NCBI GenBank assembly: GCA_029688905.1 | Contig: JARULB010000006.1 | Location: 124,001-188,000 of the forward strand | Source: Balneolales bacterium ANBcel1 | Lineage (GTDB): Bacteria > Bacteroidota > Rhodothermia > Balneolales > Natronogracilivirgulaceae | Direction of reading: 5' to 3' | Length of the DNA: 64,000 bases | Notes under the pieces: model-generated | What the model saw: the letters and a program-made list of their open reading frames with translations, nothing else | What the model was told of the DNA's origin: nothing | Database searches by the model: none | In this document: positions 1 to 55,465 of the stretch, one piece after another | Layout: every line of letters begins with the position of its first letter | How positions within the stretch are numbered: position 1 is the first letter of the stretch | Made by a program: the position numbers and the translations under genes

Positions 1-173
1 GCACAGTCTCCGGGTTCCCGCTGCACGTTCGGACAAGCCGCCAAATCAACCGGCGACACTTGCGTCATCCGTCCGTATTCCGCGGGTGAGCACCGAGAAC
101 CGCACTCCGGGTCCGACGGCATGCAACACCGTGGAACAAAATCCGGCTACCCGGACTTATTCTGAAAAATAAA

Positions 174-40834: not shown

Positions 40835-40866
40835 TTGACAAGTTGCCCGACTGTTGATTACATTTT
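40835..40866 (+). promoter_or_regulatory. Predicted promoter of the SUMT-cysH leader
   Basis: TTGACA at 40835-40840, then 18 bases, then TACATTTT at 40859-40866. This fits both a sigma70-type -35 and the Bacteroidota TAnnTTTG -7 pattern (last base differs). A near twin, TTGACA-17-TAAATTTC, stands before the second leader at 55435-55465. The transcript would start at about 40873. Confidence 0.55.
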
Positions 40867-40886
40867 AACGACACTTACTAAGTAAA

Positions 40887-40979
40887 ATGTCTACAGACAG
40901 TTACAGCATGCCCAAGACGAATTATCTGCCGATTACCATGTGTACCATGTGTTGCACACCCTCCGGAGGTAGTGGGTAG
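40887..40979 (+). CDS. Cysteine-rich leader peptide 1
   Basis: 30-codon open frame (ATG 40887, TAG 40977-40979) that ends about 165 bases before the SUMT start. Its second half contains MCTMCC, three Cys codons at 40941, 40950 and 40953, followed by TPSGGSG and the stop. In-frame ATGs at 40908, 40938 and 40947 would still include Cys codons. The GSG end is encoded by the same GGT-AGT-GG(N) stretch that can pair with the terminator, and it occurs in the same frame in leader 2. The role inferred is a ribosome sensor of charged cysteinyl-tRNA, not a functional peptide. Confidence 0.7.
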   Translation: MSTDSYSMPKTNYLPITMCTMCCTPSGGSG

Positions 40980-41038
40980 ATATCAGCTGTAACCATGTCG
41001 TGACAGACATTTCTGATGTAAAGCCCGCTGCCATCCGG
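40963..41038 (+). promoter_or_regulatory. Predicted antiterminator of attenuator 1
   Basis: Segment 40963-40976 (CCGGAGGTAGTGGG, the last codons of the leader peptide) can pair with 41024-41038 (CCCGCTGCCATCCGG). This makes 14 base pairs including two G-U pairs, with one bulged A. The partner segment contains most of the 5' arm of the terminator at 41021-41055, so the two structures exclude each other. A ribosome stalled at the first Cys codon would leave the pairing possible; a ribosome at the stop codon would cover 40963-40976 and allow termination. Confidence 0.65.
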
Positions 41039-41055
41039 TTGCGGGCTTTTTTTTT
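41021..41055 (+). terminator. Intrinsic terminator of attenuator 1
   Basis: Stem AAGCCCGC (41021-41028) with GCGGGCTT (41041-41048), a 12-base loop, and a run of nine T (41047-41055). It lies after the leader peptide and about 90 bases before SUMT, not after a gene. It closely resembles the terminator at 55248-55285. Confidence 0.85.
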
Positions 41056-41145: not shown

Positions 41146-42066
41146 ATGCCGATCCAAACCAGCACAACCGAAACCAACCGGAATGGCCGCAGAGCCAACA
41201 ACGAACCCGAGTCATCCGGGACCGATAACCGCCATGGTGAGCCACCGACCGTATCCGGCAGAACAGCCGGCGACAACGGCAAGATGAGGTCCGGGCATAT
41301 CCCCGGACGGGTTGCCATTGTCGGTGCCGGTCCGGGCGACCCCGAGCTGATTACCCTGAAAGCGGTGAGATTGCTGCGATCGGCCGATGTCGTTTTGTAT
41401 GACCGTCTTTGCAACCCTGACCTTCTGCATTTTACCAGGCCCGGCACCCGGAAGATATGCGTCGGCAAGCAGTGTGGAAAACCTTCCATCAGTCAGGCCG
41501 ATATCAACCGGCTGTTGATTTCCCATGCGCGAAACGGTGGCATGGTGGTCCGGCTAAAGGGCGGCGACCCGTTTATTTTCGGGCGGGGCGGTGAGGAGTG
41601 CATGGAACTGGCACAGCACGGCATTCCATTTGAAGTTGTGCCCGGCATCAGCAGTATTTCGGCTGTGCCGGCCTATGCGGGAATACCGTTGACCATGCGC
41701 AATCAGGCAACCGGATTTACGGTCATCAGCGGACACCTGCACGACGGCAGTGATTCCTACGACTGGCGAGCTCTGGCCGGTATCTCCACCCTGGTGATCC
41801 TGATGGGGCTGAAAAACCTGCACCGTATCATTGAAGAGCTGATCCGGAACGGCAAGCCGGCCGACACTCCCATTGCGCTCATCCGTTGGGGAACCACCGT
41901 GGAACAGCAGGTGATCACCGGGACCCTGGCGGACATCCCGGCTAAAACCGGGGGAGTCACATCCCCCGTCACCATCGTTATCGGCGAGGTGGTGCAGCAT
42001 ACTCGCGAGCTGGCATGGTTTCAGCCGGAGCGCGCGCACACACGCACTGTCCGGCAGCTAAGCTGA
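41146..42066 (+). CDS. cobA: Uroporphyrinogen-III C-methyltransferase (SUMT)
   Basis: Uses two SAM to methylate uroporphyrinogen III to precorrin-2, the precursor of siroheme for sulfite reductase. 306 residues. After a polar, apparently disordered N-terminus of about 50 residues, the SAM-binding VAIVGAGPGDPELITLKA begins, followed by VLYDRLCNPDLL, VRLKGGDPFIFGRGGEE, GISSISAVPAYAGIPLT and VILMGLKNL. An internal ATG at 41285 would remove the extension. It is the first gene after the predicted cysteine attenuator, followed by cysH; the dehydrogenase half of siroheme synthesis is encoded separately at 44099. Confidence 0.95.
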   Translation: MPIQTSTTETNRNGRRANNEPESSGTDNRHGEPPTVSGRTAGDNGKMRSGHIPGRVAIVGAGPGDPELITLKAVRLLRSADVVLYDRLCNPDLLHFTRPGTRKICVGKQCGKPSISQADINRLLISHARNGGMVVRLKGGDPFIFGRGGEECMELAQHGIPFEVVPGISSISAVPAYAGIPLTMRNQATGFTVISGHLHDGSDSYDWRALAGISTLVILMGLKNLHRIIEELIRNGKPADTPIALIRWGTTVEQQVITGTLADIPAKTGGVTSPVTIVIGEVVQHTRELAWFQPERAHTRTVRQLS

Positions 42067-42122
42067 CCGGCAAAGAAAACCGCCCGTTTCCGTTGATCCC
42101 GGGCAACAGCCAATACCATATT

Positions 42123-42941
42123 ATGAGCGATTATCACCATAAGCATACACGTTTGAACGAAAAAGAACGTCCGCAGGCAGGGGCACAACCGGAAAGCGGC
42201 AGCATGAGCGGCCACAGCAGGCCTTCCGGGCGTACAGATTCACAGGCCTCCCGCATATCGGATGAAGAGATCCGCCGCCTGAATACGAGATTCCGGGATG
42301 CCGGTCCGGAGCAAATTCTGCAATGGACCGTTGCCCGTTACGGCGATGATGCCGTGCTCTCTACCGGGTTCGGGGCGTCAGGAATCGTGCTTATGCACCA
42401 GCTTTCACTGGTGAAGCCGGGAGCCGCAGCGTTTTACCTGGATACCGACCTTCTGTTCGGTGAAACCTATGAACTGATTGACCGAATTCGCGAACGAATG
42501 GAGTTGAATCTGGTGCGGGTGCGGCCGGAACTATCGCTGGATGAACAGGCGGAACAATACGGCGACCGGTTGTGGGAAACGCGTCCCGACCAATGCTGCC
42601 ACATCCGGAAAGTGCTGCCGCTGCAACGCTTTCTGTCGGATAAACGGGCCTGGATCACCGGCATCCGCAGAGATCAATCCGAGACCCGCAAACACACCGA
42701 ACTGTTTGCATACGATCAGCGGCTGGATATCCTGAAAATAAACCCGCTGGCGTCGTGGCCGGAAGAAGACGTTTGGAGCTACATCCGCATCAACGATTTG
42801 CCTTACAATGAATTACATGACAAGGGATATCCCAGTATCGGCTGTTGGCCCTGCACAAATCCGGTAAGCGAAGGCGAAGACCTGCGCGCGGGACGCTGGT
42901 CGGGAACCGGGAAAACAGAATGCGGCATTCACATGAAATAA
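42123..42941 (+). CDS. cysH: Assimilatory adenylylsulfate (APS) reductase, CysH family
   Basis: Reduces activated sulfate to sulfite using thioredoxin-type electrons. 272 residues from the ATG at 42123; an upstream in-frame start would overlap SUMT. Cys158-Cys159 (QCCHIRK) and Cys241/Cys244 (GCWPCTN) form the CC...CxxC set that binds a 4Fe-4S cluster in APS-using enzymes. The catalytic Cys267 is in TECGIH near the C-terminus. STGFGASG (P-loop-like) and TGIRRDQSETR mark the substrate site. The first about 45 residues are polar and low-complexity. Siroheme from the flanking genes would serve the next step, sulfite reductase, which is not in the window. Confidence 0.93.
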   Translation: MSDYHHKHTRLNEKERPQAGAQPESGSMSGHSRPSGRTDSQASRISDEEIRRLNTRFRDAGPEQILQWTVARYGDDAVLSTGFGASGIVLMHQLSLVKPGAAAFYLDTDLLFGETYELIDRIRERMELNLVRVRPELSLDEQAEQYGDRLWETRPDQCCHIRKVLPLQRFLSDKRAWITGIRRDQSETRKHTELFAYDQRLDILKINPLASWPEEDVWSYIRINDLPYNELHDKGYPSIGCWPCTNPVSEGEDLRAGRWSGTGKTECGIHMK

Positions 42942-43002: not shown

Positions 43003-43716
43003 ATGAAAGATTTGCCAGAAACAGAGAACGGCGATAAGATTCCAGTTAATGAAGAAAATGAAGTTGAACGCTTTACTTTCTCTCTCCTTGGTAAACAAGC
43101 CTTACAGTTTTTCAATTTAGAAAAAGGTTTTTTACATACGCTAAAGCTGTTGATTATAAATCCGGGAAAGCACATTCGGGCCTATTTGAGTCATGATCGT
43201 AATCGCTTGATAAACCCATTTAAATTTTATCTATTTACTGGAACAATATTTGTTTTTATCTATCGATATTTACTTTCAGAGGAGCATTTCGAGAATAGAG
43301 TTGATTCTGAATTGGAGCAAGAAGTCTTTTTGTTCATTATTCACTACTATCACTTTTTTCTGCTGTTTGCAGTATTCTTTATCGCATTCTTTTCTTACTT
43401 GCTTTTCAAAAAAGAATCAGGCTATAACCTAATAGAAATTTTGATTTTTAATCTATATATTACGGGCATATTTTTTGCAATATCTATTATTACGTCTCCA
43501 CTGGGTGATAATTTTCAGCCTTACAGTGATATTATCATTAGCCTTATTTCTTTCTCCTATTTTATATTTGCGTACATATCATTTTTTAGGGGAGATTACT
43601 TGGAAACAACAGTTAAAACTGTATTAGCTATTATCCTTGGAATATGTACGATTATATTTTTAATTATTCTGTCAGGGTTTATCGTAGGTTTTTTGCAAGC
43701 CGTATCTCAAGCCTAA
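43003..43716 (+). CDS. DUF3667-type membrane protein, AT-rich
   Basis: 237-residue protein of the DUF3667 type, seen widely in Bacteroidota. A soluble N-terminus with FTFSLLGKQALQFFNLEKGFLHTLKLL and PGKHIRAYLSHDR, then RLINPFKFYLFTG, leads into about five transmembrane segments rich in Phe and Ile. Function unknown. The DNA is strikingly AT-rich compared with both flanks, and codon use (AAA, TTT, ATA) is unlike cysH or the siroheme gene. This points to recent acquisition between sulfate-assimilation genes. Confidence 0.85.
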   Translation: MKDLPETENGDKIPVNEENEVERFTFSLLGKQALQFFNLEKGFLHTLKLLIINPGKHIRAYLSHDRNRLINPFKFYLFTGTIFVFIYRYLLSEEHFENRVDSELEQEVFLFIIHYYHFFLLFAVFFIAFFSYLLFKKESGYNLIEILIFNLYITGIFFAISIITSPLGDNFQPYSDIIISLISFSYFIFAYISFFRGDYLETTVKTVLAIILGICTIIFLIILSGFIVGFLQAVSQA

Positions 43717-44098: not shown

Positions 44099-44815
44099 AT
44101 GAAATCTTTTTATCCGATATACCTGACCCGGCTTGATGAGAAGAAGGTCGTGCTGCTGGGTGGTGATGAAGAAGCCGAACGTAAGCTCGATGAACTGCTC
44201 TCGTTTGGTGCGAGGGTGCATGTTTTGAGCGAAGAGATAACGGATGAAATGCGCCGATGGCATGACGGCGGGCGTTTCAAGTGGACAGCGCGGGAGTACC
44301 GCTTCGGTGATCTGGAGGGAGCCGGATTCGTGGTGGCGGCCGATTACTCCCAACAGATGGCCGAAGAAGCGGCCGGAGAGGCGAAGGAGCGCAACCTGAT
44401 TATCAATGTGATGGACAACATCCCGCTTTCCAACTCCGCGTTCGGCTCGGTGGTGCGGCGCGGCAAGCTTACCGTCTCCTTCTCGACAAATGGACTGGCA
44501 CCCGCGCTGGCGGTTCGGCTCAAGCAGAGGTTCCAGCGGGAACTGGACGAGGCTTATGGCGAATTTCTGGAGTTGGCCGAACAAATCCGTCCGTCCATTA
44601 TGGCGCTGATGCACGATTCGGAGGCCCGGAAGAAACGATGGTACGAATGGGTGGATTCGGAGGTAATCCCCCTGCTGCGTGAGGGGCGCAGAGACGACGC
44701 TTTGGCATTGACGGAACAGATATGGGGCCGGGCAATCATGAAGCGGTCGGGGTTGCGGGCGAAAGAGAAGCTGCTTGTTCGATTGTTACGGAAAGCAGCC
44801 GCTCTCTTTTCGTGA
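44099..44815 (+). CDS. Precorrin-2 dehydrogenase / sirohydrochlorin ferrochelatase
   Basis: Second enzyme of siroheme synthesis (CysG N-terminal or Met8p type), 238 residues. It oxidises precorrin-2 with NAD and inserts iron. The Rossmann start is KKVVLLGGDEEAERKLDELL, where GGDEEAERK replaces the usual GGGxVAxRK. The likely catalytic Asp is in NVMDNIPLSNSAF, and FSTNGLAPALAVRLKQR is the conserved SSGGxSP-like segment. It complements SUMT at 41146 but is separated from cysH by the AT-rich insertion, so it may have its own promoter. Confidence 0.92.
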   Translation: MKSFYPIYLTRLDEKKVVLLGGDEEAERKLDELLSFGARVHVLSEEITDEMRRWHDGGRFKWTAREYRFGDLEGAGFVVAADYSQQMAEEAAGEAKERNLIINVMDNIPLSNSAFGSVVRRGKLTVSFSTNGLAPALAVRLKQRFQRELDEAYGEFLELAEQIRPSIMALMHDSEARKKRWYEWVDSEVIPLLREGRRDDALALTEQIWGRAIMKRSGLRAKEKLLVRLLRKAAALFS

Positions 44816-50493: not shown

Positions 50494-52641
50494 TTATTTC
50501 AGTTCGCGGATAATCAGAGACACCGCTTCATCCACTGGCATGGAATCCGTGTCGATGAGCAGAGCGTCTTCTCCCGGCGGTTCATGGGAGGCGTCATACC
50601 CCGTTAGCCCGCGGATTTCTCCTTTTTCTGCTTTTTTATACAGGCCCTTCGGGTCACGGGCGATCAGCGTTTCCCGGCTTGCCGTAACATGTATCTCCGT
50701 AAAACGGCTTTCGGGAAACAACGCCTTAACAGCTTCGCGATCGGCCCGATACGGCGACACGAAGGTGCAGATGACCACATTGCCATGCTCGAAGAAGAGC
50801 CTTGCCAGTTCACCGACCCTGCGGATATTTTCCCTGCGACCGGCCGGATCAAAACCCAGATCACGGTTCAGCCCGTGCCTGACCTGGTCACCGTCCAGCA
50901 GCATGGTACGGCGCCCCTCATCCCACAACGTACGCTCCAGCGCCTTTGCAATGGTCGTTTTTCCGGCGCCGGACGGACCGGTGAACCAAAGGACTCTGGC
51001 CGTGTGCCCGTTCCGTTCTTCCCGTTCGGTTCGCCCGATATTCCACGGCTCCGGGAATACCTGCCGGCTGCCCGGTGTATCCACAGAAACCCTTCCGGGT
51101 GCTTCTGCCGAATCCCTGCCAGGCCCAACCGCCTTACTCTCCGGCAATTGATCCACACTCTCCGGTGCCGTTGTACTGCTGCTGCGAATCATGCCCGCAC
51201 CGACCGTCACATTGGTATCGGGATCGATCAGTACAAAGCTGCCGGTGGCGTTGTTGAGCTTGTAGGCATCGAAAAAGACCGGCTGTGCCGTCTCCAGGCA
51301 GATCCGCCCGATTTCGTTCAAAGTAAGGGTATCGGTCTCTTCACGGTGCAGTGAATCCACATTAATCCGGTATCGGACCCCCGTAACGCGGACCGGGGTT
51401 GTCCGAGTGGTATGCATCACGAGATAGTCCTTGTCTGTTCGAAGCGGCTCCTTGTTCATCCAGCTCACTGTCGCCTCGAACCGGGTTTTAACGTTCGGGA
51501 CATTGTTCCTGCGAACCAGCATATCCCCTCTGCTGATATCAATTTCGTCGGCAATTTCCAGCACTACCGATTCCCCGGCTTTTGCCCGCTCGGCGGCTCC
51601 GTCGGGATTCTGGATGGAAACGATCCGGGAGGTTGCACCCGACGGGAGTATCTTCACCTCCTCGCCCACTTCGACCGATCCCGAGACTACCCGCCCGGCA
51701 AACCCGCGGTAATCCTGATCGGGTCGAATGACATACTGCACCGGAAATCGGAAATCATTGGGGTTCTTGCGCGAGCCCACCCGCACATGCTCCAGGTGAT
51801 GCAGCAGCGTCGCTCCCCGGTACCACGGCATCCGCTCGCCGCTGTTCACGATGTTGTCGCCGTTTAGCGCCGAAATGGGTATATAGGTGATATCATCCAC
51901 TTCCAGATTCTCTGAAAACGCCTTGAAGTCATCGGTGATTTCGTTGAACCGCTCTTCGCTGTAATCGACCAGGTCCATTTTGTTGACGGCTACCACAAGG
52001 TGCGGAATCTGCAACAGGGAAGAGAGAAACGCGTGGCGCCGGCTCTGGGTGAGCACGCCTTTCCGGGCATCGATCAGGATGATGGCAAGGTCGGCCGTCG
52101 ATGCGCCGGTCACCATATTCCGGGTATATTGCTCATGGCCCGGGGTATCGGCAATGATGAACTTGCGGCGGGGAGTCGCGAAATAGCGATAGGCAACATC
52201 GATGGTAATACCCTGTTCCCGCTCGGCCCTGAGTCCGTCGGTGAGCAGTGCCAGGTTGACCGGTCCCTCGCCCCGGTTCCGGGTGGTCGTCTCCAGCGCC
52301 TCCCACTGATCCTCGAATATCGACTTGCTGTCGTACAGCAGCCTTCCGATGAGCGTGCTCTTGCCATCATCCACACTGCCGGCGGTGGTGAAGCGGAGCA
52401 GGTCCATGTTCAGGTATGCGGGATCGACCCCATCGGGGACGGCCTCGCTCGTCAACTCCGGCCGCCCGGCATTGTTTGCATGGGTGGATGAGGATGAAGC
52501 CGATGCCTGGCCCGCGTCAGAGTGCTTCCGTTCTGCGGATCCCTTCCCGGTTTCGGTCCGGTTTATGCGGCCGGTTTCCTCTCCGGATCGCCGGTTTCGG
52601 GAGGATGTTCCATTGGTCGTAGTCTGTTTTTTGATACTCAT
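50494..52641 (-). CDS. cysN: Sulfate adenylyltransferase large subunit fused to APS kinase (CysNC)
   Basis: Bifunctional 715-residue protein. The EF-Tu-like GTPase part has TAGSVDDGKSTLIGR (P-loop), ADTPGHEQY and AVNKMDLV; with CysD it makes APS from sulfate and ATP. After a polar linker of about 60 residues comes an APS kinase domain with FTGPSGAGKTT, GDQVRHGLNRDLGF and RENIRRVGE, which makes PAPS. The start is the ATG at 52641, one base after the cysD stop, so the pair is translationally coupled. The first about 70 residues (after MSIKKQTTT) are a low-complexity Ser/Thr/Arg/Glu extension. Belongs to the unit behind attenuator 2. Confidence 0.96.
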   Translation of the reverse strand: MSIKKQTTTNGTSSRNRRSGEETGRINRTETGKGSAERKHSDAGQASASSSSTHANNAGRPELTSEAVPDGVDPAYLNMDLLRFTTAGSVDDGKSTLIGRLLYDSKSIFEDQWEALETTTRNRGEGPVNLALLTDGLRAEREQGITIDVAYRYFATPRRKFIIADTPGHEQYTRNMVTGASTADLAIILIDARKGVLTQSRRHAFLSSLLQIPHLVVAVNKMDLVDYSEERFNEITDDFKAFSENLEVDDITYIPISALNGDNIVNSGERMPWYRGATLLHHLEHVRVGSRKNPNDFRFPVQYVIRPDQDYRGFAGRVVSGSVEVGEEVKILPSGATSRIVSIQNPDGAAERAKAGESVVLEIADEIDISRGDMLVRRNNVPNVKTRFEATVSWMNKEPLRTDKDYLVMHTTRTTPVRVTGVRYRINVDSLHREETDTLTLNEIGRICLETAQPVFFDAYKLNNATGSFVLIDPDTNVTVGAGMIRSSSTTAPESVDQLPESKAVGPGRDSAEAPGRVSVDTPGSRQVFPEPWNIGRTEREERNGHTARVLWFTGPSGAGKTTIAKALERTLWDEGRRTMLLDGDQVRHGLNRDLGFDPAGRRENIRRVGELARLFFEHGNVVICTFVSPYRADREAVKALFPESRFTEIHVTASRETLIARDPKGLYKKAEKGEIRGLTGYDASHEPPGEDALLIDTDSMPVDEAVSLIIRELK

Positions 52642-52642
52642 A

Positions 52643-53566
52643 TTAAAAATACCCCTGTACTTTACGATCTTCCATGGCCGCCTCCGACCGTTTATCGTCA
52701 TGTCGGTTTCCCCGTTCGGTTACCCGGGCCGCTGCCACCTCGGCTATGATTTCCTCCATGGTGGACGCGTGTGAAAGTACCGCGCCGGTGCAGGTAGCGT
52801 CTCCGATGGTGCGAAACCTTACCACCTTATCCTCAGGCTCCTCTTCCGGATATCTTGAAATAAAATTGGTATCGGCCAGCCAGGTGCCGCGCCGATTGAA
52901 CACCTTGCGCGTATGGGAAAAATAGAGAGATGGAATGGGGATCCGCTCGGCGGCGATATACTGCCAGATATCCATCTCGGTCCAGTTGCTAAGCGGGAAC
53001 ACACGGAAGTGTTCGCCCACATTCTTGCGCCCGTTGAACAGGCTCCAGAGCTCGGGACGCTGGTTCTTGGGATCCCATTGTCCGAAAGCGTTGCGGTGTG
53101 AGAAAAACCGCTCCTTGGCGCGGGCTTTCTCCTCGTCACGACGGCCGCCGCCGAGTGCGCAATCCGCCTGATGCCGTTTAAGCGTATCCAGCAGGGTGAC
53201 GGTCTGCAGCGCGTTTCTGCTGGCCTCCGGACCGGTTTCCTCCCGTACGCGGCCCTCTCTAATGCTCTCCTCCACACTTCCCACAATCAGACGGGCGCCG
53301 GTACGCCGCACCAGTTCGTCCCGGAATTCGATCGTTTCTCGAAAATTATGACCGGTGTCGATGTGCATCAGCGGAAACGGGAACCGGCCGGGGCGAAATG
53401 CCTTGACGGCCAGATGAACCATGACAATGGAGTCCTTTCCACCCGAAAATAGCAGAACCGGACGCTCAAACTGCGCCGCCACTTCCCGCATGATGAACAG
53501 GGCCTCTTCTTCCAGTACTTTAAGGTGAGAGTTGCGCGGTGCTTCGATTTTTGTTACGTGTTGCAT
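52643..53566 (-). CDS. cysD: Sulfate adenylyltransferase small subunit CysD
   Basis: ATP-sulfurylase catalytic subunit of the PAPS-reductase-like PP-loop family, 307 residues. LLFSGGKDSIVMVHLA is the PP-loop, with HIDTGHNFRETIEFRD, GGRRDEEKARAKER and the C-terminal FRTIGDATCTGAV region typical of CysD. It works with CysN, whose GTPase drives the reaction. Preceded by the permease gene on the same strand with a 76-base gap. Confidence 0.98.
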   Translation of the reverse strand: MQHVTKIEAPRNSHLKVLEEEALFIMREVAAQFERPVLLFSGGKDSIVMVHLAVKAFRPGRFPFPLMHIDTGHNFRETIEFRDELVRRTGARLIVGSVEESIREGRVREETGPEASRNALQTVTLLDTLKRHQADCALGGGRRDEEKARAKERFFSHRNAFGQWDPKNQRPELWSLFNGRKNVGEHFRVFPLSNWTEMDIWQYIAAERIPIPSLYFSHTRKVFNRRGTWLADTNFISRYPEEEPEDKVVRFRTIGDATCTGAVLSHASTMEEIIAEVAAARVTERGNRHDDKRSEAAMEDRKVQGYF

Positions 53567-53642: not shown

Positions 53643-55118
53643 TCACACCCAAAGCCAGCTCACCATGCCGACGGTGACCGCCATCAGGATCAGGGTTACC
53701 GGAAAACCCGCCTTCATGAAATCGGTAAACCGGTATCCTCCCGGCCCCATCACCATCAAATTGGTTTGATAACCGATAGGTGACAGGAAGCTGGCCGAAG
53801 CGGCCACCGCTACAGTCACTCCCACCGCCTGTGGATCCATCCCGAGCGCCGACGACGCGCTCAGCGCCACCGGTATCATCAGTACAGCCGCGGCATTGTT
53901 GGTGACCATCTCGGTGAGCAGGTTGGTGATCAGATAAACTCCGGCCAACACCGCTATCACACCAAATCCGGAAGTTTGATGCACGACGGATTGTGCCATT
54001 ACTGTGGCCAGCCCCGTTTGCTCCATGGCAACTCCCACACCCAGTGCGCAGGCGATCACAACCAGCACGGGCACGTGCACCGCTTTGATGACCCTTCGCA
54101 GCGACAGCCTGCCGGTAGCCAGTATGGCCAGCGCGGCACCGATCACCGACCAGTGAACCGGGAGAAGGCCGCTTGCCGAGACCCCGATCATCACCGTGAC
54201 GATAACCAGTACGGGCAGTGCATTCGACCAGGTTACGCATTGCTCCCGCTCCTGTTTTGCATTTGACGACCGGTATACGCCGCTGGGGACATTCGCACCG
54301 GTTTTTGACGTTCCGGTTGCCATCGCATATCGCGTGGTGTAGACTCCGCTGGGCCAGTTGTTATCGCCCAGAGGGTTATGGAACACGAAATTTCCCTGAA
54401 AGACCCGCCGTTCGAAGAACCGGTTGCCGGCGCGTGTGACTCTGGCCTCGTTGGCCTCGTAGTAGTCGGCTGCCGGAGCACCGGCCGGATTCTCACGGTC
54501 GGGCAGCAGCCGATGGCCGATCGTCGCAAACCAGATGATAACCAGGATGGTGGCGGGAATACCGATCCATGCCAGTTGAAACATCCCGAACGGGGCGTGA
54601 CCACGATCCGACATCATCTCCGAAACAATCAGATTGGTGGAGGTGCCGATCAGGGTTATTGTGCCGCCGACAATGGCCGCATAGGACAGGGGGATGAGCA
54701 GTTTGGATACCGGGATGCCGATGCGCCCCGACCACTGCTGCAGCTGGGGAGTGAACATGGCGACGATCGGAGTGTTATTCAGGAAAGACGACATCGCCGA
54801 TGTGGATCCCATAATACGTAACAGAGTGGCACCGATTCCCCCTTTGCGTGACAACAGAAGCTTGTCCAGATGAGTGAGCAGCCCCGCCTGTCGGACTCCC
54901 TCCGCAACCACGAAAAGGGCCCCGACCGTCAAAACCGCCGTGCTGGTAAAACCGGAAACGGCCTGAACCGGAGTGATGATACCGGCGACCAGCAACAGCA
55001 GCAGCACCGCAAGAAACAGATGGTGCGGACGAATCCGGCCTTGTATCAGCAACGCAATCATCGTAACGATGCTCGCTGCGGTAAACCAGGCCTGCCAGTC
55101 GATTTGCTCTGAAATCAT
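53643..55118 (-). CDS. SLC13/DASS-type permease, probable sulfate transporter
   Basis: 491-residue inner-membrane transporter of the divalent-anion/Na+ symporter (SLC13, ArsB-NhaD/CitT) group with about 11 membrane segments. Repeat motifs SSFLNNTPIVAMF with GTSTNLIVSEM in the first half, and TEMVTNNAAAVLMIP with SPIGYQTNLMVMGPG in the second, mark the two re-entrant substrate loops. Sulfate permeases of this family usually carry central TrkA_C domains. Here the central insert is a short polar loop of about 90 residues, so this is a compact version. Position ahead of cysD-cysNC makes sulfate the likely substrate. First gene after attenuator 2. Confidence 0.9.
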   Translation of the reverse strand: MISEQIDWQAWFTAASIVTMIALLIQGRIRPHHLFLAVLLLLLVAGIITPVQAVSGFTSTAVLTVGALFVVAEGVRQAGLLTHLDKLLLSRKGGIGATLLRIMGSTSAMSSFLNNTPIVAMFTPQLQQWSGRIGIPVSKLLIPLSYAAIVGGTITLIGTSTNLIVSEMMSDRGHAPFGMFQLAWIGIPATILVIIWFATIGHRLLPDRENPAGAPAADYYEANEARVTRAGNRFFERRVFQGNFVFHNPLGDNNWPSGVYTTRYAMATGTSKTGANVPSGVYRSSNAKQEREQCVTWSNALPVLVIVTVMIGVSASGLLPVHWSVIGAALAILATGRLSLRRVIKAVHVPVLVVIACALGVGVAMEQTGLATVMAQSVVHQTSGFGVIAVLAGVYLITNLLTEMVTNNAAAVLMIPVALSASSALGMDPQAVGVTVAVAASASFLSPIGYQTNLMVMGPGGYRFTDFMKAGFPVTLILMAVTVGMVSWLWV

Positions 55119-55247: not shown

Positions 55248-55285
55248 AAAAAAAAAGCCCGCGACCTGATGAGGCAGCGGGCTTT
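55248..55285 (-). terminator. Intrinsic terminator of attenuator 2
   Basis: On the minus-strand transcript: AAAGCCCGC (55285-55277), 14-base loop, GCGGGCUUU (55262-55254) and a U run (plus-strand A run 55248-55256). It stands about 130 bases upstream of the permease start and after leader peptide 2. Its arms and the loop start UGCC match the terminator at 41021-41055. Confidence 0.85.
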
Positions 55286-55335
55286 CGGAACACTCGTTGA
55301 TCCTTAAGATCAGAGCATACAACAACCACTACCTC
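55271..55335 (-). promoter_or_regulatory. Predicted antiterminator of attenuator 2
   Basis: On the minus-strand RNA, GAGGUAGUGG (55335-55326, inside the leader peptide frame) can pair with CCGCUGCCUC (55280-55271). This gives ten contiguous pairs with two G-U, and beyond one mismatch four more pairs are possible (55337-55340 with 55269-55266). The partner contains the 5' arm of the terminator. The motif and its in-frame position match attenuator 1. Confidence 0.62.
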
Positions 55336-55399
55336 TCCAGCGGGGCATCATACAGCACATACAGAGACAAATATGGCTATGGATCGGGTTGGTTGTCAT
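55310..55399 (-). CDS. Cysteine-rich leader peptide 2
   Basis: 29-codon open frame, ATG at 55399, TGA at 55312-55310, about 190 bases before the permease start. It contains six Cys codons: four clustered in CLCMCCMM and two in CCML at the end. GSG, encoded by GGT-AGT-GGT, lies between them, in the same frame as in leader 1. The shared pattern C.MCC...GSG on opposite strands at two sulfate-assimilation units is what makes this frame credible. The extra Cys pair after GSG is a difference from leader 1. Confidence 0.7.
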   Translation of the reverse strand: MTTNPIHSHICLCMCCMMPRWRGSGCCML

Positions 55400-55434
55400 A
55401 AGTATTGAATTATCAATCATTTTTGGTGATGCGA

Positions 55435-55465
55435 GAAATTTACACCATCTTCGAGTTCATGTCAA
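55435..55465 (-). promoter_or_regulatory. Predicted promoter of the permease-cysD-cysNC leader
   Basis: On the minus strand TTGACA (55465-55460), 17 bases, TAAATTTC (55442-55435), seven of eight positions of the Bacteroidota TAnnTTTG pattern. It lies between the gamma-glutamyltransferase stop and leader peptide 2, and parallels the promoter at 40835-40866. Confidence 0.6.

Follow-up and report, generated by a model that had tools for sequence, protein, structure and literature searches.

The window analyzed here, a stretch of 64,000 nucleotides from Balneolales bacterium ANBcel1, carries on its minus strand a sulfate-assimilation unit composed of a CitMHS/DASS-type anion permease gene (53643..55118; PF03600, E=1e-58), cysD, which encodes the small subunit of sulfate adenylyltransferase (52643..53566; TIGR02039 above cut-off), and cysNC, which encodes the large subunit of this enzyme together with APS kinase (50494..52701; NF004035 above cut-off). 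Between a gamma-glutamyltransferase gene and this unit, on the same strand, lies a short leader in which the first-pass annotation had described, at 55248-55465, a TTGACA-17 promoter, a 29-codon frame containing CLCMCC and an in-frame GGT-AGT-GG stretch. All of these are present.

Read along the minus strand, the leader begins with a -35 element, TTGACA (55465-55460), and a -10 element, TAAATTTC (55442-55435), both identified by direct reading and by a promoter scan; together they form a TTGACA-17-TAAATT promoter with a 17-nt spacer, which is the top promoter-like match of the 500-nt region (10/12). The leader ORF (55399-55310), of 29 codons plus TGA, reads MTTNPIHSHICLCMCCMMPRWRGSGCCML, and its MTT start is common to several relatives; an alternative in-frame ATG upstream, at 55420, would lengthen it by seven codons to 36. 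The regulatory Cys codons, TGT-CTC-TGT-ATG-TGC-TGT (CLCMCC), occupy 55369-55352, and the antiterminator element GGTAGTGG, region 2 of the switch, follows in frame at 55333-55326. A short spacer after the leader frame leads to the terminator (55285-55248), AAAGCCCGC...GCGGGCTTT and then nine T, laid out as AAAGCCCGCTGCC-TCATCA-GGTCGCGGGC plus the T-run. Its 5' arm AAAGCCCGCTGCC (region 3; 55285-55273) is common to the terminator and the antiterminator, and its 3' arm GGTCGCGGGC with the nine T (55266-55248) constitutes region 4. The permease gene starts about 130 nt beyond the T-run. The pairing proposed earlier between 55335-55326 and 55280-55271 is correct: the helix of region 2 reaches 55335, and the two segments form a complete 10-bp helix, GAGGUAGUGG/CCGCUGCCUC, with two G-U pairs. 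A possible region 1 is the start-codon segment TATGACAACCAAC (55400-55388), whose predicted partner is TGGTTGTTGTATG (55328-55316).

A sister leader with the same parts, also recognized in the first-pass annotation, is found about 14 kb away on the plus strand (40835-41055), in front of SUMT-cysH. Its promoter, TTGACA-18-TACATTTT, spans 40835..40866; the leader ORF, MSTDSYSMPKTNYLPITMCTMCCTPSGGSG followed by a stop, spans 40887..40979; the element GGTAGTGG lies at 40968..40975, with a duplex of its own of -28 kcal/mol; and the terminator is at 41020..41055. The genes that follow on the plus strand encode uroporphyrinogen-III C-methyltransferase (SUMT; 41146..42066), (P)APS reductase (cysH; 42015..42941) and, further downstream in the same direction, a CysG N-terminal-type siroheme synthase (44099..44815). 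A gene for a DUF3667 protein (43003-43716) is located between cysH and the siroheme synthase gene. The leader is absent at the sulfite/nitrite reductase gene of this genome; the only NIR_SIR match is a single 737-residue frame on another contig (G000:C7:26466-27758; L254, L255), which is missed by the usual sulfite-reductase model.

In the 3.3-Mb genome, the joint pattern GGTAGTGG-N20..110-AAGCCCGC occurs exactly twice, both times at these leaders, and its backward reading does not occur at all. The earlier argument that chance is unlikely is borne out by this count and by the relatives that carry such leaders, but the description of the two copies as independent occurrences does not hold, because they are near-identical; the case against chance therefore rests on the relatives. 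For these, we used cysD and cysH as anchors in 129 Balneolales genomes and scanned the surrounding regions for Cys-rich frames ahead of terminators. Leaders of the same plan were found before most cysD/cysH units of the window's family, the cys units of close relatives included, as well as before cysH-type units in another family, whereas the cysD units of most Balneolaceae fetched have no such leader. The TTGAC-17..20-TAnnTT promoter precedes 13 leaders of the family, including both copies in the window.

A covariance model was built from 21 leaders, with the terminator helix as its sole structure, and run over whole genomes; the starting leaders had been picked near cys genes, whereas the genome-wide search was not so restricted. 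In the 129 Balneolales genomes, many of them fragmentary, the top score class comprised 41 matches of at least 55 bits, distributed over 31 genomes. All 41 precede sulfur-acquisition genes rather than unrelated ones, as the first-pass annotation had envisaged for such a search, and 20 of them, the sister leader among them, lie outside the training set. In its own genome, the model ranks the two leaders first, at 104 and 57.6 bits, ahead of a third match at 32 bits (L250) that was rejected, as it has no Cys frame. The units preceded by strong matches are permease-cysD-cysNC, SUMT-cysH-cysG, sulfite reductase-SUMT-cysH, a 3-mercaptopyruvate-sulfurtransferase-like gene followed by sulfite reductase-SUMT-cysH, and a sulfurtransferase with a transporter of the Sulf_transp family. 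Just under the 55-bit class are Cys leaders before cysH alone (L059, L060), together with those of L093, L101 and L106 described below. Matches of 43-51 bits were rejected as a specific class: they are a mixture of leaders before trpE, a plain terminator (L096), other Cys leaders and opposite-strand matches on symmetrical terminators, so specificity was counted only from 55 bits upward. In the other 116 genomes of the class, no match was found at E <= 1e-5, a threshold to be read with the roughness of the model's E-values in mind.

Several leaders have features of their own. In L093 (442-568, plus strand), a Cys leader with a diverged element and arm precedes sfnG-msuE, the genes for dimethylsulfone monooxygenase and its FMN reductase. 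Cys- and Met-rich leaders with terminators stand before genes for 1100-residue TonB-dependent receptors in L101 (3709-3832, minus strand) and L106 (408-535, plus strand), which suggests that outer-membrane uptake of a sulfur compound may be under the same control. Two Fodinibius leaders (L051, L073) have a short inverted repeat of the ATGAC...GTCAT type right after the promoter, possibly an extra 5' hairpin. In the genome represented by L037, the two leaders have an identical, uncommon arm, GCCTGCTGCC, a hint that the two copies have changed in concert.

One alternative is that the hairpin merely terminates transcription of the gene upstream and that the ORF arose by chance. The T-run does lie only about 230 nt past the end of the gamma-glutamyltransferase gene on the same strand, and many terminators have a similar sequence, as the weak model matches illustrate; however, that gene is separated from the hairpin by a promoter, the Cys codons and the element, two families have leaders of this plan, and high scores are reached only before sulfur genes. 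We consider this explanation extremely unlikely.

A further feature of these leaders is the alternative pairing of the element with the terminator 5' arm. In 29 of 29 leaders, the strongest upstream partner of the arm is an element of the GGTAGTGG type. In an alignment of 48 rows, fitted to the terminator without regard to this pairing, 95.5% of the element/arm pair cells are intact, compared with 28-68% when the segments are slid by 1-3 columns; two of the 48 rows are opposite-strand matches on symmetrical terminators and weigh against the pairing. None of 500 shuffles attained the covariation score of the same rows, and in three pairs both partners have changed; when the arms were reshuffled among the leaders (46 rows), none of 20,000 rearrangements attained the observed mean pairing energy. 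The clearest case is L081, which swaps both sides (arm CAACGCTCTC, element GAGAGTGT), while L064 and L087 combine GATAG with CTATC. Owing to the high conservation of the helix, covariation counted strictly by column is modest. In the Fodinibius-type leaders L073 and L074, the element is identical to a portion of the terminator 3' arm.

The placement of the parts is conserved as well. Nearly all leaders have a Cys doublet; in each of the 21 that were measured, 12-19 nt separate it from the element downstream, and the stop codon follows 9-30 nt past the first base of the element. Between the leader ORF and the first gene, nearly all aligned leaders have a hairpin followed by a T-run. The nucleotides of the element are kept even where they fall in another reading frame (L043, L057, L077, L084, L089) or behind the stop codon (L053, L054, L109), which indicates that the element acts as RNA and that selection is on the RNA. 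Further upstream, the start-codon segment ATGACAACCA is predicted to pair with TGGTTGTTGTATG, where the element ends; in most of the 10 leaders of the permease-cysD type, the best upstream partner of this stretch lies at the same place. Paired changes occur in two of them (AAAACCA/TGGTTTT in G128; GACCA/TGGTC and AACTC/GAGTT in G124), and this is suggestive of a protector (1:2) pairing.

The leader thus described combines a codon run for the end product, an intrinsic terminator, a mutually exclusive alternative pairing, a characteristic codon placement and pathway genes downstream, the features of a leader-peptide attenuator. From these parts and their arrangement, from the conservation of the alternative pairing and from the confinement of strong matches to sulfur genes, we infer that it is very probably a ribosome-mediated transcription attenuator. 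By sensing charged Cys-tRNA, it would control the uptake and activation of sulfate, and the sister copy would do the same for siroheme and PAPS-reductase genes. RNA polymerase would begin at the TTGACA/TAAATT promoter, with a ribosome trailing on the 29-codon leader. When Cys-tRNA is ample, the ribosome would reach the stop codon or its vicinity and mask the GGUAGUGG element, so that the terminator hairpin could form and transcription would end ahead of the permease gene. When Cys-tRNA is scarce, the ribosome would stall on CLCMCC, upstream of the element (by 12-19 nt in the family), and the free GGUAGUGG element would capture the 5' arm CCGCUGCC while the 3' arm has yet to be transcribed, leading to read-through. 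Pairing of the leader start with the end of the element may hold the switch off when no ribosome is present.

With a standard footprint, a ribosome stalled on the Cys doublet would not mask the element, and a ribosome at the stop codon would cover it wholly or in part. Given an element-to-stop distance of 9-30 nt, coverage by the terminating ribosome may be incomplete in some leaders. Full-length equilibrium folding favors the terminator in nearly all cases, whatever the position of the ribosome, and simple ribosome masks do not separate the stalled from the finished state for the two leaders of the window; the decision, and with it antitermination, must therefore presumably be kinetic. Two Cys codons just past the element have no clear place in the attenuation model; the protector pairing with the start-codon segment, if it forms, would also explain this second Cys pair.

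The identity of the sensor is addressed by a set of weaker model matches. Ten of them (L092, L095, L097-L100, L102-L105) precede trpE, as judged by gene products that share 72-100% identity with a protein scoring above the TIGR00564 cut-off. These leaders carry WWW in place of the Cys run; nine of the 10 have GGCAGTGG or AGCAGTGG 15-17 nt later, and their terminator arm is CCCACTG or CCCGCTGCC. On these grounds, we interpret them as a tryptophan attenuator on the same chassis, a natural codon swap. Since the codon run tracks the pathway, with Cys before sulfur genes and Trp before trpE, the run itself is taken to be the sensor, and this is the strongest argument for that role.

The same observation bears on whether the leader might encode a functional small cysteine-rich peptide that binds metal or takes part in redox chemistry. 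The CLCMCC...CC arrangement could indeed bind metal, but outside the Cys run the length and sequence of the peptide vary widely, the element nucleotides are kept across frames and behind the stop codon, and trp operons have Trp codons at the same place; we therefore give almost no credence to this explanation. As little can be said for a riboswitch or T-box that binds cysteine, O-acetylserine, SAM or uncharged tRNA. The structure of the leader and its place ahead of sulfur genes would be in line with such a device, but an Rfam search of 35000-64000 placed no family at the leader, returning one tRNA and two matches far below gathering scores, one of which overlaps the sister terminator on the opposite strand, and a large conserved aptamer is absent from the leader alignment.

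Attenuation by a leader peptide, the reading we prefer, is of a classic kind. Leader-peptide attenuators of the trp/his type are known from Proteobacteria and some Firmicutes (PMC2965389), and the leaders described here share with them a short ORF with a run of codons for the end product, mutually exclusive antiterminator and terminator structures, and pathway genes downstream. They differ in responding, as proposed, to a Cys signal, in preceding sulfate-assimilation and sulfur-scavenging genes, and in their Balneolota host; moreover, the element resembles the terminator 3' arm, and the possible protector pairing involves the leader's own start codon. Another, not necessarily homologous, counterpart is the uORFC-8-2 motif before cysS in Rhodobacterales, for which ribosome-mediated attenuation has been predicted (PMC8632094) and which likewise combines a uORF bearing tandem Cys codons with a predicted intrinsic terminator. 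However, that motif governs cysteinyl-tRNA synthetase in Alphaproteobacteria and its first stem itself holds Cys codons, whereas the leader of the window belongs to Balneolales and stands before sulfate-assimilation genes, not cysS. In the literature we found, the only predictions of a cysteine version that includes an intrinsic terminator concern cysS leaders of Alphaproteobacteria, and we found no description of a cysteine attenuator of this kind in Balneolota.

Mycobacteria offer another parallel and, with it, a rival mechanism. Their polycysteine leaderless uORFs (Canestrari et al. 2020, as presented in PMC13236596 and PMC9094748) are likewise Cys-rich, lie before genes of the cysteine pathway and are cysteine-responsive, and in those accounts they are described as acting by translation attenuation; in addition, candidate leaders in Actinobacteria lack terminators, with none reported for Mycobacterium (PMC1262725). 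By analogy, the uORF of the window might govern the ribosome-binding site of the first gene, the hairpin being incidental. Unlike the mycobacterial and Actinobacterial leaders, those described here have a conserved terminator: nearly all contain a GC-rich hairpin with a T-run, the conserved alternative pairing uses the 5' arm of this hairpin, and in the window the T-run lies about 130 nt ahead of the permease start. Translational control of this type is thus very unlikely compared with transcription attenuation.

Enteric bacteria govern the same pathway by sulfur status through the activator CysB. The first-pass annotation had proposed attenuators rather than a CysB-type activator, and this proposal fits the present genome: in contrast to CysB systems, the only LysR-type effector domain found in it sits in an OxyR-like protein. 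The proposal is qualified by the partial coverage by leaders and by a group of 12 among 44 leaders, all from Balneolaceae genomes (L054, L057, L059, L060, L064, L077, L084, L087, L088, L089, L091, L109), that have an upstream palindrome, AAAGCGCTTT, and no TTGAC-TAnnTT promoter. The palindrome lies 160-225 nt ahead of the model start and occurs in 19 copies in 1.57 Mb of fetched DNA. It is perhaps an activator or repressor site, and given the missing TTGAC promoter a DNA-binding regulator may also act on those leaders.

A scan of 84,980 genomes for the leader pattern, regardless of gene context, returned 113 stretches, most of which were rejected as chance matches within coding sequence. Outside Balneolota, five stretches have an in-frame Cys run with a matching terminator. 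Two Acidobacteriota-type leaders precede cysM (L142, L205), and a third (L201) precedes the same gene order, presumably headed by the same gene. The remaining two are from Omnitrophota: L207 stands before an oscA-like gene (a match below the family cut-off), with a CymR/IscR-like Rrf2 gene upstream, and L219 stands before a similar small gene, judged by eye.

Taken more broadly, these observations raise the prospect of one exchangeable Balneolales chassis in which only the codon run is varied, with cysteine attenuation rather than a CysB-type activator as the main sulfur control of the window's family, and with similar switches in Acidobacteriota, ahead of cysM, and in Omnitrophota, ahead of oscA-like genes; we regard this wider picture as about equally likely to be right or wrong. 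Our confidence is just as evenly divided over how the chassis would be built, namely around an element that mimics the 3' arm of the terminator, placed at a near-fixed distance past the codon run and possibly closed by the start-codon pairing.

A conserved family of leaders before whole sulfur-acquisition units would provide a concrete sulfur control system for Balneolota. The family predicts which operons respond to cysteine, and its natural chassis is suited to a Cys-to-Trp codon swap. The covariance model, in turn, may be useful to annotate the sulfur regulons of uncultured relatives.
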